Made by a program: the position numbers and the translations under genes | Notes under the pieces: generated by a model | Told to the model about the DNA's origin: nothing | What the model saw: the letters and a program-made list of their open reading frames with translations, nothing else | The model's database searches: none | IMG/VR virus record: IMGVR_UViG_3300013233_000129 | Coordinates: 1 to 28,168 of that record | From: a virus | Strand: one strand, 5' to 3' | Length of the DNA stretch: 28,168 bases | Shown: in pieces, positions 2,622 through 10,944 of the stretch | How positions within the stretch are numbered: position 1 is the stretch's first letter | How the letters are laid out: each line of letters begins with the position of its first letter

Positions 2622-3116
2622 ATGACCTCAATCTTATTCTTTCCTCCACGTGCCTTCTTTGGAAAACTAATCGCCGCAGTTTCCCATCATGCGCCGGGTG
2701 TACCAGAAGTAGCCCACGTAGCTATCGTCTACAATGACACCGATATCCACAACTTTGTATTTGAAGCATTCGCCCCAAATGGTGTAAGAGAAGGATACTA
2801 CACAAAGGGCCAAGGTATCAAATTTAACATAGAACTTGACCCCACTAAATTAAATCAAATACGCCAAGAGGTCAATGGTGCCAAATATGACTGGTTGGCC
2901 TATCCATTCCTAGCAATAGATGGTCTATTCTCTTTCTTTGGTAAGTCAATCCATCGTAACCCTTTCCAGAATAAAAACCGTTGGGTATGTTCCGAACTTG
3001 TAGCATATGTAATCCAGGAGTGTGCAGTAGATCCAAAATATGTGAAGCTAATTAAAGATGGCCCATCATGTTGGTCTCCTCAACGTCTAATAAATACTTT
3101 TTGGGGTACACTATAA
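2622..3116 (+). CDS. Permuted papain-like (NlpC/P60 superfamily, YiiX/YebB-like) peptidase; candidate endolysin
   Basis: A 164-residue protein with the permuted papain-like layout: an early His in AHVAIV (about H32), an acidic residue in FEAF (about E48) and a late Cys in WVCSELVAYVIQ (about C123). The CSEL signature and a following SPQRLI segment are typical of YiiX/YebB-like members of the NlpC/P60 superfamily, which cleave amide bonds. Its stop overlaps the next start as TAATG, and the gene after that encodes a holin. Cassette position therefore makes it the leading candidate for the cell-wall lysis enzyme. No signal peptide is obvious, so it would need the holin to leave the cytoplasm. 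There is no clear Shine-Dalgarno. A second protein of the same fold lies at 24383-24847, so which one is the lysin is uncertain. Confidence 0.7.
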   Translation: MTSILFFPPRAFFGKLIAAVSHHAPGVPEVAHVAIVYNDTDIHNFVFEAFAPNGVREGYYTKGQGIKFNIELDPTKLNQIRQEVNGAKYDWLAYPFLAIDGLFSFFGKSIHRNPFQNKNRWVCSELVAYVIQECAVDPKYVKLIKDGPSCWSPQRLINTFWGTL

Positions 3117-3187
3117 TGGGTTGGGCTCTTACTCTAGCATTTATGGGAACGGTTGTTTATAAGTTAATAGAGGGGATGGTTCATTAA
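3116..3187 (+). CDS. 23-residue single-helix membrane peptide of the lysis cassette
   Basis: A tiny gene whose ATG overlaps the peptidase stop as TAATG and whose own stop is one base before the holin ATG. The peptide begins MGWALTLAFMGTVVYKLIEG: a hydrophobic helix of about 15 residues followed by a short tail with one Lys and one Glu. Tight placement between peptidase and holin suggests translation and a membrane role in lysis, for example as a holin partner or antiholin. A purely spacer role cannot be excluded. Its 3' end carries the GAGGGG that is probably the ribosome binding site of the holin gene. Confidence 0.55.
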   Translation: MGWALTLAFMGTVVYKLIEGMVH

Positions 3188-3188
3188 A

Positions 3189-3608
3189 ATGTTTGGTTTA
3201 GTAGGAGCAGCTGTATCTGGTTTATTCTCACCTTCTAACAACTCAAATAGTACCCCAATAGAAGCTATAGGAAAAACTATAGGTGAATTATTTACTTCAG
3301 ATGATGAGAGGTTAACTCATCAAGAAATCCTCACAAAATTAGCACAGGCTCCCCAAACAGCTCAACAAGAAATTAATAAACTAGAAGCCCAATCAAGATC
3401 AACTTTTGTATCAGGTTGGCGCCCTGCAATAGGTTGGGTTTGTGCTGTAGCCTTACTTTTCAACTTCGTGCTTAACCCCCTAATTCAATGGATAGTAGGA
3501 TCTACCGGACCAGTAATTGATCAGGATATGATTATGAAACTTGTATGGGCTCTGTTAGGATTGGGTGGATTCAGAACAGTAGAAAAGATCAAAGGTAGAA
3601 CAAAGTAA
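3189..3608 (+). CDS. Holin, GTA-type three-transmembrane (3TM) family
   Basis: A 139-residue inner-membrane protein matching the 3TM holin family first described in gene transfer agents. The N-terminus is a short hydrophobic segment (MFGLVGAAVSGLF). A charged, Gln-rich middle follows (about residues 30-70), then the family signature SGWRPAIGWVCAVALLF leading into a long hydrophobic region, and a last hydrophobic stretch LVWALLGLGGF before a basic tail. Length and order of segments match the family. It would permeabilise the inner membrane to release the peptidase encoded just upstream. GAGGGG within the preceding small gene is the probable ribosome binding site. A lysis cassette between terminase and portal is unusual, since lysis genes more often follow the tail genes. 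Confidence 0.85.
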   Translation: MFGLVGAAVSGLFSPSNNSNSTPIEAIGKTIGELFTSDDERLTHQEILTKLAQAPQTAQQEINKLEAQSRSTFVSGWRPAIGWVCAVALLFNFVLNPLIQWIVGSTGPVIDQDMIMKLVWALLGLGGFRTVEKIKGRTK

Positions 3609-3614
3609 AGAAAA

Positions 3615-3627
3615 TTTCGTTTAAATA
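3615..3627 (+). promoter_or_regulatory. TTTCGTT motif, candidate phage promoter (copy 1)
   Basis: TTTCGTTTAAATA lies in the gap after the holin and before the 28-codon repeat gene and the portal. It is one of four intergenic copies of TTTCGTT followed by an AT-rich stretch. It lies only four bases before the ATG at 3631, so if it is a promoter its start site would fall at or inside that small frame. Confidence 0.4.
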
Positions 3628-3630
3628 CTT

Positions 3631-3717
3631 ATGGCAAAAAGAACAGTAAAATCGAAAACAGTAGTACGGACAGTAAAATCTCTTACTGTTGTACGAACTG
3701 TAAAGTCTCTATCCTAA
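3631..3717 (+). CDS. 28-residue basic peptide made of TVVRTVKSL repeats
   Basis: A small frame not recognised as any known family. It encodes MAKRTVKSK and then two copies of TVVRTVKSL plus a final Ser. The core RTVKS occurs three times, with Arg written as AGA, CGG and CGA. The two full repeats differ at six bases, all third codon positions and all synonymous. That pattern is expected if the peptide, not the DNA, has been kept. Eight of 28 residues are Lys or Arg and none is acidic, so binding to nucleic acid or to an acidic protein surface is possible. It ends six bases before the portal ATG. There is no good Shine-Dalgarno, and the same DNA can fold into a hairpin, so an RNA role is a rival explanation. 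Confidence 0.5.
   Translation: MAKRTVKSKTVVRTVKSLTVVRTVKSLS
3658..3701 (+). other. Imperfect inverted repeat (possible RNA hairpin) upstream of portal
   Basis: ACAGTAA (3670-3676) pairs with TTACTGT (3683-3689) around a six-base loop. GTAC (3664-3667) pairs with GTAC (3691-3694), and ACAGT (3658-3662) pairs with ACTGT (3697-3701), with small internal loops between. No T-tract follows, so it is not a typical terminator. It could regulate portal expression or be a by-product of the repeats in the small gene. Confidence 0.4.
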
Positions 3718-3723
3718 TAATCT

Positions 3724-5085
3724 ATGTTTAATCCTCTATCTATATTCTCTAGCAAAAAAGAAGAAGTAAAGACCATTGAGGTTTTTGAAAAGTCTTCTGA
3801 TTCTTTTGGTATAGATGTTCCTACTGGAATGTATGGTCAGGAAATCTCTGCCACTAATGTTGTTGATACCTTTAGCACCCTTGTTTATGTACGATCTGCT
3901 ATAGGAATCCTTCAAGATAGTATTTCTCAGATTCCAGTTAAGATTTTACGAGAAGATGCTGATGGGGAATTAGTAGAATTATACCGAGTTAGGGATCCAG
4001 CATTTAGAAAAGACCTCTTTAGTGCTCCTAATCCTTTCTTTACTTATGATGAGTATATTTCTGATATTATCTTAAATTACTGTCTCTATGGTAATGCATT
4101 TACTACTCTAGAAATAGATGGAGGAAAGGCAGAAACCTACTCCATAGATCCCACTAAGATGAGGATTGTTCCAGATAAGAGAAATTACATCAAACAGTAC
4201 GAATATGGAAATGGAACCTCTAAGGTAATCTACGTTCCTAGACAAATAGGCCATATTCGTACAAGATCTCTTAGTGGTATTTATTTTGGACAATCTCCTA
4301 TAGAAACCATCTCTAATGAATTAAACACACTACTATATCAGAATAAGTTCCTCCTAGATTACTTTAAAAACTCAGCTAGACCTGATGGGGTACTTGTAAC
4401 AGATAACTTCCTATCTCCCACAATCAAAGATAAGATTCGCGCAGAGTGGAATCGCCTCCATAGTTTCTTCGGCTCCAATGCAGGAAAAGTTGCAATCCTC
4501 TCAAATGGTCTCCGGTACGAAAAGATCCAAGATTCCCTATCTGATGTTAATGTTGATAAGTTAGATAATTTCCTAGCACGAAGGGTTGCGACAGCATTTA
4601 GAATTCCAATGCTATTCTTTGCAAACTCCGAAAATGTAAACTTTAGTACAAGTACCAACGTAATCAAGATTTATTACAGAATGGCAGTTCGTCCTATTAT
4701 TTCTAGGATTGAAGATCGTCTTACTCGACTTGTTCAGGGATATTTTAACGACAATAAGTTACATGTGAAATTTCAGTTACATGGACTTCCTGGACTTGTA
4801 GAGGATCTTGAGACATATGCTAAGACCCTAGGCTCCCTTAAAGATGCGGGGATTGTTTCTGCTAATGAGGCGAGAAAAATGCTTAATCAGGTTGTACGTG
4901 TTAATCTAGATATTAGAGATGATGAGGCAGCAGACGAATTAGTGGTGAGGGGTAGTGGTTCAGCTAGAGATGCAGGACAACCACAACAGTCTCCTGATAA
5001 ACCAAGACGAGAAGGTACTGATAATACGAATTCAGATTTATCTATCCCCGAAACTCTAGCTATGCTGGAGGAGTTAGATCTATGA
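3724..5085 (+). CDS. Portal protein, HK97 family
   Basis: A 453-residue portal, close to the usual length of the HK97-type portal family. It forms the dodecameric ring at one head vertex through which DNA enters and to which the neck attaches. Recognisable landmarks are VYVRSAIGILQDSISQIPVKIL near the start, the wing region with LYGNAFTTLEI, GIYFGQSPIETISNEL, the stem helices around YFKNSARPDGVLV, and VATAFRIPMLFF followed by the C-terminal crown. The last 50 residues are polar and probably disordered. No convincing Shine-Dalgarno precedes the ATG, so expression may depend on coupling to the small repeat gene six bases upstream. The stop overlaps the next ATG as ATGA. Confidence 0.93.
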   Translation: MFNPLSIFSSKKEEVKTIEVFEKSSDSFGIDVPTGMYGQEISATNVVDTFSTLVYVRSAIGILQDSISQIPVKILREDADGELVELYRVRDPAFRKDLFSAPNPFFTYDEYISDIILNYCLYGNAFTTLEIDGGKAETYSIDPTKMRIVPDKRNYIKQYEYGNGTSKVIYVPRQIGHIRTRSLSGIYFGQSPIETISNELNTLLYQNKFLLDYFKNSARPDGVLVTDNFLSPTIKDKIRAEWNRLHSFFGSNAGKVAILSNGLRYEKIQDSLSDVNVDKLDNFLARRVATAFRIPMLFFANSENVNFSTSTNVIKIYYRMAVRPIISRIEDRLTRLVQGYFNDNKLHVKFQLHGLPGLVEDLETYAKTLGSLKDAGIVSANEARKMLNQVVRVNLDIRDDEAADELVVRGSGSARDAGQPQQSPDKPRREGTDNTNSDLSIPETLAMLEELDL

Positions 5086-7724: not shown

Positions 7725-7757
7725 GGGGCGAGGGCAGTTTAGCCTCGCCCCTTTTTT
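7725..7757 (+). terminator. Rho-independent terminator after the capsid gene
   Basis: GGGGCGAGG (7725-7733) pairs perfectly with CCTCGCCCC (7743-7751) around a nine-base loop, followed by six T. It lies between the capsid stop (7694) and the connector start (7770). It probably limits read-through so that capsid transcripts exceed those of the tail genes. Confidence 0.9.
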
Positions 7758-7769
7758 GGGTACTTTTCT

Positions 7770-9443: not shown

Positions 9444-10460
9444 ATGGCTGAAGTACTACAAAGAAGTATGAGATTATATATTGCACCCACAACTGTCACC
9501 TCTGCAACGGCTTTAGCCACTGCATATCGGGTGCCTTTTGTATCCCAGGATCTAAACAGTCAGTTTGATACTGTGGATCGTAATGTTGTGTTGAATAGTA
9601 TTGTAAAAGAGCACTCACTTGTTGTACGTGAACAGGTGGCTGGTACTTATACTAAAGAACTTTATTTTAGTGATACCTCTCTAACTACCGCCTCTGCGGC
9701 TGTTCCTGATTTTTGGATTCTTAAGGCTCTTGGTCTTAATAATACAGCCGCTAATGCTACTCCTACTGGAGTAACTTCTGCTTATACTTTTACAAACACA
9801 GCAACTCCATCTACTGACTGGTTAAACATTTATAAGATTTTTGATAATGCTACCCCATCAACAGGTAGTGGTGAGGTTTATCAACATACCTCAGCTCGAC
9901 CCACAGCGATGACTTGGAATTTTGCAGTAGGTAGTATTGTAGAACCTCAGATTACTTTTGCAGGGCTTAATACTGCTGTTACTTCCGCTTTTACAATTCC
10001 TTCAGATACTATCACTACAAGTACTTTAGATCCTGCTATTCCAAAGAGTATGAGCATTACTATTGATGGCTCGGGTTTTAACCTTACAGATCTAACTCTT
10101 AATTTAACAGGTACTACCCAGAATGTAGAGAGTATTGCAACCGATGGTATTACTAATATTATCAATACTGGGTTTGCTGTAACTGGTTCTTTCAATGTTC
10201 TTTATAACACTGCGGATGAGTTCTATAAGAAGTTCCTAAACTCAACCGCCGTATCTGCTGAAGTTATTATTAAGGACGCCCCCGCTCTAGCAGGAAATAC
10301 AGGACGATCCATCACCTTCACAATTCCTAACCTTAAATTCTCAAATGTAACCCCTCAGGTTTCTAATGACTTCGTATCAAATGCTGTAGAGTTTACCGCA
10401 GCTAACCCAACAGATCAATCTTCAGGAGCTATTGAGATTAAGTATCAGATCGTACCATAA
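9444..10460 (+). CDS. Major tail protein (tail tube)
   Basis: A 338-residue, Thr/Ser/Ala-rich protein of beta character with few charged residues, the usual look of a siphovirus tube protein. MAEVLQRSMRLYIAPTTVTS at the start and the FTIPNLKFSNVTPQ / EFTAANPTDQSSGAIEIKYQ ending fit tube proteins that stack as hexamers. A clear AAGGAG lies about nine bases before the ATG. The position between the tail terminator and the frameshifted chaperone pair is the canonical place. The protein is longer than the minimum tube fold (about 150-250 residues), so part may be an added surface domain, perhaps in the middle (residues about 180-260). The gene directly follows a putative promoter motif. Confidence 0.85.
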   Translation: MAEVLQRSMRLYIAPTTVTSATALATAYRVPFVSQDLNSQFDTVDRNVVLNSIVKEHSLVVREQVAGTYTKELYFSDTSLTTASAAVPDFWILKALGLNNTAANATPTGVTSAYTFTNTATPSTDWLNIYKIFDNATPSTGSGEVYQHTSARPTAMTWNFAVGSIVEPQITFAGLNTAVTSAFTIPSDTITTSTLDPAIPKSMSITIDGSGFNLTDLTLNLTGTTQNVESIATDGITNIINTGFAVTGSFNVLYNTADEFYKKFLNSTAVSAEVIIKDAPALAGNTGRSITFTIPNLKFSNVTPQVSNDFVSNAVEFTAANPTDQSSGAIEIKYQIVP

Positions 10461-10530: not shown

Positions 10531-10556
10531 TATGAAAGGAGATCAATTATGATCTT
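10531..10556 (+). promoter_or_regulatory. MKG-type mini-leader and ribosome binding site (copy 1)
   Basis: AACTATGAAAGGA, six bases, then TTATGATC. The first ATG opens a six-codon frame (MKGDQL) whose TGA overlaps the gene's ATG. The AAAGGAG in it is the Shine-Dalgarno of the tail chaperone gene. The same arrangement recurs at 23587-23611. Confidence 0.4.
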
Positions 10557-10944
10557 TGCAGTCTCAACAAAGCAGACATTCGATTATGTACCAGAGTCCG
10601 ATAGAAAGTCAGATACACCTACTACTTTCAAACTACGGACCCTGACAGCTAGAGAACTTGTAGCCATCGAAGATCGAGTTACAAGACTCTCACAAACTGA
10701 AAATTCAGATGAAGTAAGTATCTCAGTTTTCAGTGGTACTCAGTCACTTCTAGCCCTTCGTTACGGTCTACGTGGTTGGGAAAACTTTAGTCTTCCTGAT
10801 GGTAGTGAGGTTAAGTTTAAGGCAGATAGAAACGGCACCCCAAAGGATGTTACTATTGACTTTATTCCTTCTGAAATCCGTCAGGAACTTTCTACTGCAA
10901 TCCTTGATCGTTCACGTCTAGCAGAGGAAGAAACAAAAAACTAA
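10549..10944 (+). CDS. Tail assembly chaperone, gpG-like (short form)
   Basis: A 131-residue protein at the position of lambda gpG, between the tube protein and the tape measure. It is charged and largely helical in its second half (FIPSEIRQELSTAILDRSRLAEEE), with an N-terminal beta-like part that includes KLRTLTARELVAIEDRV. Chaperones of this type coat the tape measure until the tube assembles and are not found in the virion. The gene ends in AAA AAC TAA, preceded by A, giving the heptamer A AAA AAC at 10935-10941. This is a classic slippery site that would move some ribosomes into the -1 frame and produce the longer GT-like form. The start has a strong AAAGGAG. Confidence 0.82.
   Translation: MIFAVSTKQTFDYVPESDRKSDTPTTFKLRTLTARELVAIEDRVTRLSQTENSDEVSISVFSGTQSLLALRYGLRGWENFSLPDGSEVKFKADRNGTPKDVTIDFIPSEIRQELSTAILDRSRLAEEETKN
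10935..10941 (+). promoter_or_regulatory. Programmed -1 frameshift site A AAA AAC
   Basis: The zero-frame codons are AAA AAC, followed at once by TAA. Slipping back one base re-pairs both tRNAs well and continues with CTA ACA ATC. The -1 frame is then open for 121 codons. Same position and logic as lambda G/GT. Confidence 0.85.

Follow-up and report, generated by a model that had tools for sequence, protein, structure and literature searches.

What is an open reading frame (ORF) of 28 codons, repetitive almost from end to end, doing in the short space between the holin and portal genes of a phage, and is its peptide what selection has kept? The window analysed here is an entire virus record of 28,168 bases (IMGVR_UViG_3300013233_000129), and the ORF, MAKRTVKSKTVVRTVKSLTVVRTVKSLS, extends on its plus strand from an ATG at 3631 to a TAA at 3717, with a co-directional holin gene (PHROG 3427, 3189–3608) upstream and a portal protein gene (PHROG 12, 3724–5085) downstream. 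As the earlier note had described, it carries RTVKS three times, with AGA, CGG and CGA as the Arg codons, and encodes a strongly basic peptide, having a net charge of +8 over 28 residues and no acidic residue. The partial first unit RTVKSK (3640–3657, AGA ACA GTA AAA TCG AAA) is followed on the plus strand by two full nine-codon TVVRTVKSL units, unit 1 at 3658–3684 and unit 2 at 3685–3711, and Tandem Repeats Finder (TRF) independently found the array (3641–3711, period 27, 2.6 copies). Comparison of the two full units, 27 nt each, bore out the note's count of six differing bases (offsets 2, 5, 11, 14, 20 and 26), all of which fall at third codon positions and are silent. In the first copy, MAKRTVKSK, only the RTVKS core is common to the later units, and non-silent differences, K/L and MAK/TVV, flank it; silent-only divergence applies to the two full units and the RTVKS core, not to the rest of the first unit. 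Upstream of the holin gene, a 23-residue membrane-type ORF, MGWALTLAFMGTVVYKLIEGMVH (3116–3187), preceded by a Shine-Dalgarno (SD)-like sequence, was also observed between that gene and the one at 2622–3116.

By itself, an open frame of 28 codons is unremarkable in DNA of 35% GC, at about 14% per ATG by our own rough estimate. Simulation of six random substitutions, however, yielded an all-silent outcome with P = 0.0003–0.0005 across a range of transition biases, a value that refers to a single repeat pair picked post hoc and uncorrected for the picking; since 16 tandem arrays are listed for the window, a 16-fold correction still leaves it below 0.01, though the pair was picked after looking. 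Codon log-odds, based on the usage of 15 other genes, were +8.6 bits in the frame of the ORF versus −42.6 and −16.3 bits in the other two frames. Thus, a coding constraint is supported by the silent-only divergence of the two full units together with the frame-specific codon usage, and the 28-codon ORF is probably translated, because its repeat units differ at silent positions only. These values also bear on whether the array is a non-functional recent tandem duplication, namely intergenic filler in which the open frame and the silent-only differences coincide by accident. That the ORF is an orphan missing from a related phage (see below), and that so many arrays leave room to select the striking one, would both suit such filler, but the P value survives the correction and codon usage backs the frame, and we hold this explanation to be improbable. 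Silent change inside one sequence demonstrates that two units were constrained in the past, not that a family is conserved; if translated, the ORF would nevertheless exemplify a repeat-internal test for coding selection, of use where homologues do not exist.

A coding tandem repeat in a tail gene of the same phage (22688–22743), as read from its sequence, likewise has a 27-nt period and changes largely at third positions; it forms a segment of a large protein, whereas the 28-codon ORF is repeat almost throughout. Two other frames across the array were considered and rejected. The six differences are silent also in one antisense frame, RDFTVRTTV, which is equally unchanged because the third positions coincide there, but on the minus strand that frame is offered no ATG, GTG or TTG start, and a stop immediately precedes it. 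Read-through of the holin stop would continue in a frame open to about 3730, in which the differences between the units are mostly non-silent.

At the level of the RNA or DNA, the silent changes make the direct units partly an inverted repeat, and a possible hairpin is predicted at 3658–3701 on the plus strand (arms 3658–3676 and 3683–3701, ACAGTAGTACGGACAGTAA / TTACTGTTGTACGAACTGT), with a folding energy of −17.4 kcal/mol versus −6.4 kcal/mol if the units were identical; the silent changes at 3660/3687 and 3672/3699 yield A-U pairs. As some of the silent changes contribute to a hairpin, selection may have had a target other than the peptide, so the note's step from silent-only change to selection on the peptide is sustained as regards coding constraint but not as regards the peptide being the only object of it. 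If the hairpin were the functional element, for example a site at which the mRNA is processed, stabilised or bound by a protein, the ORF would be incidental, and the gain in folding energy and these A-U pairs speak for this. Among synonymous sequences retaining the peptide and the phage codon usage, however, an equally stable fold was reached by 1.25% over the chosen core and by 18% over the full ORF, and in its context the hairpin reached a z of only −0.76. Moreover, two of the six differences (3669/3696 and 3678/3705) touch no paired base, yet are third-position and silent, and in two more only one of the two sites is paired. No Rfam RNA matched the hairpin, and an intrinsic terminator was discounted at it for want of a terminator-like T run. 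The hairpin accounts for the silent pattern less well than coding does, and a role of its own with the ORF incidental seems unlikely.

Searches for a homologue of the ORF in IMG/VR viral contigs, GTDB genomes, phage records (tblastn), PHROGs and the phage's own and related records found none. The strict peptide pattern had 0 matches in GTDB genomes, the matches of peptide patterns in viral contigs proved to be antisense stretches or unrelated ORFs, and in a motif scan over the fetched loci the window itself was the only match; at distant portal loci, no RTVKS-like ORF was found before the portal. As a query of 28 residues brings these searches close to their limit, the absence is weaker evidence than it would be for a long protein. 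By these sequence comparisons the 28-codon ORF is an orphan within the collections searched, and the note's remark that no family is known for the peptide agrees with this within the limits of the searches. Its claim that the peptide is kept by selection holds for the coding constraint seen in the silent-only units and in codon usage, and is not supported across phages, as no homologue was found in the collections searched and the only close relative is without the ORF.

The orphan status weighs against the idea of a functional basic micropeptide, in which TVVRTVKSL would bind to membrane or nucleic acid, perhaps assisting lysis next to the holin or head assembly next to the portal, and this function would drive the silent-only divergence. 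The charge of the peptide and its freedom from acidic residues, the retention of the repeat at the amino-acid level, and the position of the ORF between holin and portal are in keeping with it, and a Lys-rich ORF of 29 residues, different from and unrelated to this one, also follows the holin at other loci (L054/L055). That ORF was rejected as a relative, being alike in composition only, as is all the resemblance seen; furthermore, no homologue turned up in any collection searched, the one close relative does not carry the ORF, and no consistent helical or strand amphipathicity runs over the whole peptide. A functional micropeptide of this kind therefore appears doubtful, if less so than either filler or a functional hairpin.

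The intergenic DNA before the ORF contains a promoter-like motif, AAAATTTCGTTTAAATA (3611–3627, plus strand), and the pattern TTTCGTT[AT][AG] occurs 4 times in the 532 nt of non-coding DNA, versus an expectation of 0.036 from shuffles, none of 1000 of which exceeded 2. These intergenic sites lie at 3615, 5458, 9404 and 23573, one further copy lies in the terminase end, and none was found on the minus strand of the window. Scans with portal, capsid, tail and holin were used in the hunt for relatives of the phage, and the sole close relative found was IMGVR_UViG_3300031563_000005, whose portal, capsid and tail-tube proteins are 56%, 51% and 53% identical, respectively; portal alignment against genomes found no relative. 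In this relative, AAATTACGTTA is present five times on the coding strand (L001 2607, 5970, 7370 and 12643; L032 983), of which three sites are syntenic with those in the window, namely before the portal gene, before the small gene preceding the protease, and before the tail-tube gene. The recurrent motif is thus a candidate phage promoter. A position weight matrix (PWM) built from the relative's sites alone placed the window's site in the 3615 region only 12th, so the homology of the motif rests on the common core and synteny rather than on score. The 28-codon ORF is absent before the portal of the relative, where the portal ATG itself lies 19 nt downstream of the AAATT start, after AAATTACGTTA; in the window, it is the ATG of the 28-codon ORF that lies 19 nt downstream of the AAATT start, in AAATTTCGTTTA, which resembles the relative's AAATTACGTTA.

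Anti-SD energies of 0.2 kcal/mol at the ORF, −0.4 kcal/mol at the portal and 1.2 kcal/mol at the relative's portal indicate no SD at any of the three starts, whereas −5 kcal/mol or less was obtained for 13 of the 24 starts tested. The portal gene is on the same strand as the ORF and would be co-transcribed with it, and the TAA at 3717 stands 6 nt before the portal ATG at 3724, the intervening gap (3718–3723) containing no SD. Termination-reinitiation is limited to overlaps or very short gaps, and in E. coli the loss of reinitiation efficiency is 5–70% with a 2-nt gap and 40–80% with a 14-nt gap (PMC10666635), by which 6 nt would be permissive, though not optimal. SD-less coupling is established for the coat and lysis genes of RNA phage GA (PMC9955659), which share with the ORF and the portal a short stop-to-start distance, an SD-less downstream gene and the same direction. 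They differ in that the GA genes overlap while a 6-nt gap lies here, the upstream ORF here is an orphan of 28 codons made up of repeats, and the coupling here is only proposed.

Taken together, we give a probability of about 50% to the reading that the ORF is a lineage-specific micro-cistron heading the portal/head transcript and acting as a reinitiation coupler for the SD-less portal gene. Transcription would begin at or just before the ATG of the ORF; an mRNA with no leader, or hardly any, would agree with the closeness of the motif to the ATG. Having translated its 28 codons, ribosomes would terminate 6 nt short of the portal ATG and initiate anew at it, whereby the ORF would act as a translational coupler, while the position of the first start in the relative would be taken by the portal ATG. 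Coupling would be the most economical role for the ORF, and is put forward as a proposal; the ORF may merely deliver ribosomes to the portal gene, and the basic peptide could be a by-product or have a minor role of its own. Several points count against a coupler: the relative's SD-less portal copes without such an ORF, 6 nt is not a favoured geometry as reinitiation usually uses overlaps, the putative promoter ranked only 12th with the relative-derived matrix, and the ORF has no homologue while its silent pattern is one pair chosen after it was seen.

As to its origin, tandem duplication of a short stretch probably enlarged the ORF, with the 3′ end of the holin gene, AGAACAGTA, as a possible seed. 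The C-terminal AGAACAGTAGAA of the holin resembles the start of the repeat, and the first unit and the holin 3′ end contain like stretches (AGAACAGTAgAA/AGAACAGTAaAA) 67 nt apart, which suggests a local origin by duplication. One could go further and see a de novo micro-gene soon after its birth, in which a fragment of the holin tail underwent tandem duplication in the space separating a late promoter from the portal, acquired a start, and now yields a basic repeat peptide that is under selection and couples portal translation as well; we view this fuller scenario as a long shot. Catalogued small ORFs (smORFs) are supported by homologue clusters or expression data, whereas the 28-codon ORF has no homologue and shows the internal-repeat signature in place of it. 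With orphan smORFs of the GMSC type (PMC11364881) it has in common a length below 50 codons, being missed by gene callers, and a function that is mostly unassigned. It does not constitute a new type of system; if translated, it would be a clean example of phages generating and tolerating ORFs of very small size within intergenic gaps of a few bases.

Several other features of the two phages were observed. In the window, an A AAA AAC heptamer (10935–10941) lies just before the stop of the gene at 10549–10944, with the −1 frame open to about 11307, a combination that looks like the typical frameshift of a tail-assembly chaperone; a poly-A run occupies the matching place in the relative (L032 about 15383). 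A G+C-rich cassette (558–2543, about 55% versus 36% in the window) separates the terminase from the lysis and portal genes, and the matching slot of the relative (L001 3133–5916) contains a different gene set. A gene at L001 2635–3078 in the relative encodes a product with a PEP-CTERM-like signal at its end, VPEPTSMLLFGSTIVGLVALRKR. In both phages, the major capsid gene is directly followed by a strong intrinsic-terminator-like hairpin and a T run (window 7725–7760; L001 about 10158–10192), and in the relative a gene that, judged from its sequence only, is homing-endonuclease-like (GIY-YIG type) is inserted after the capsid gene (L001 10231–10926).
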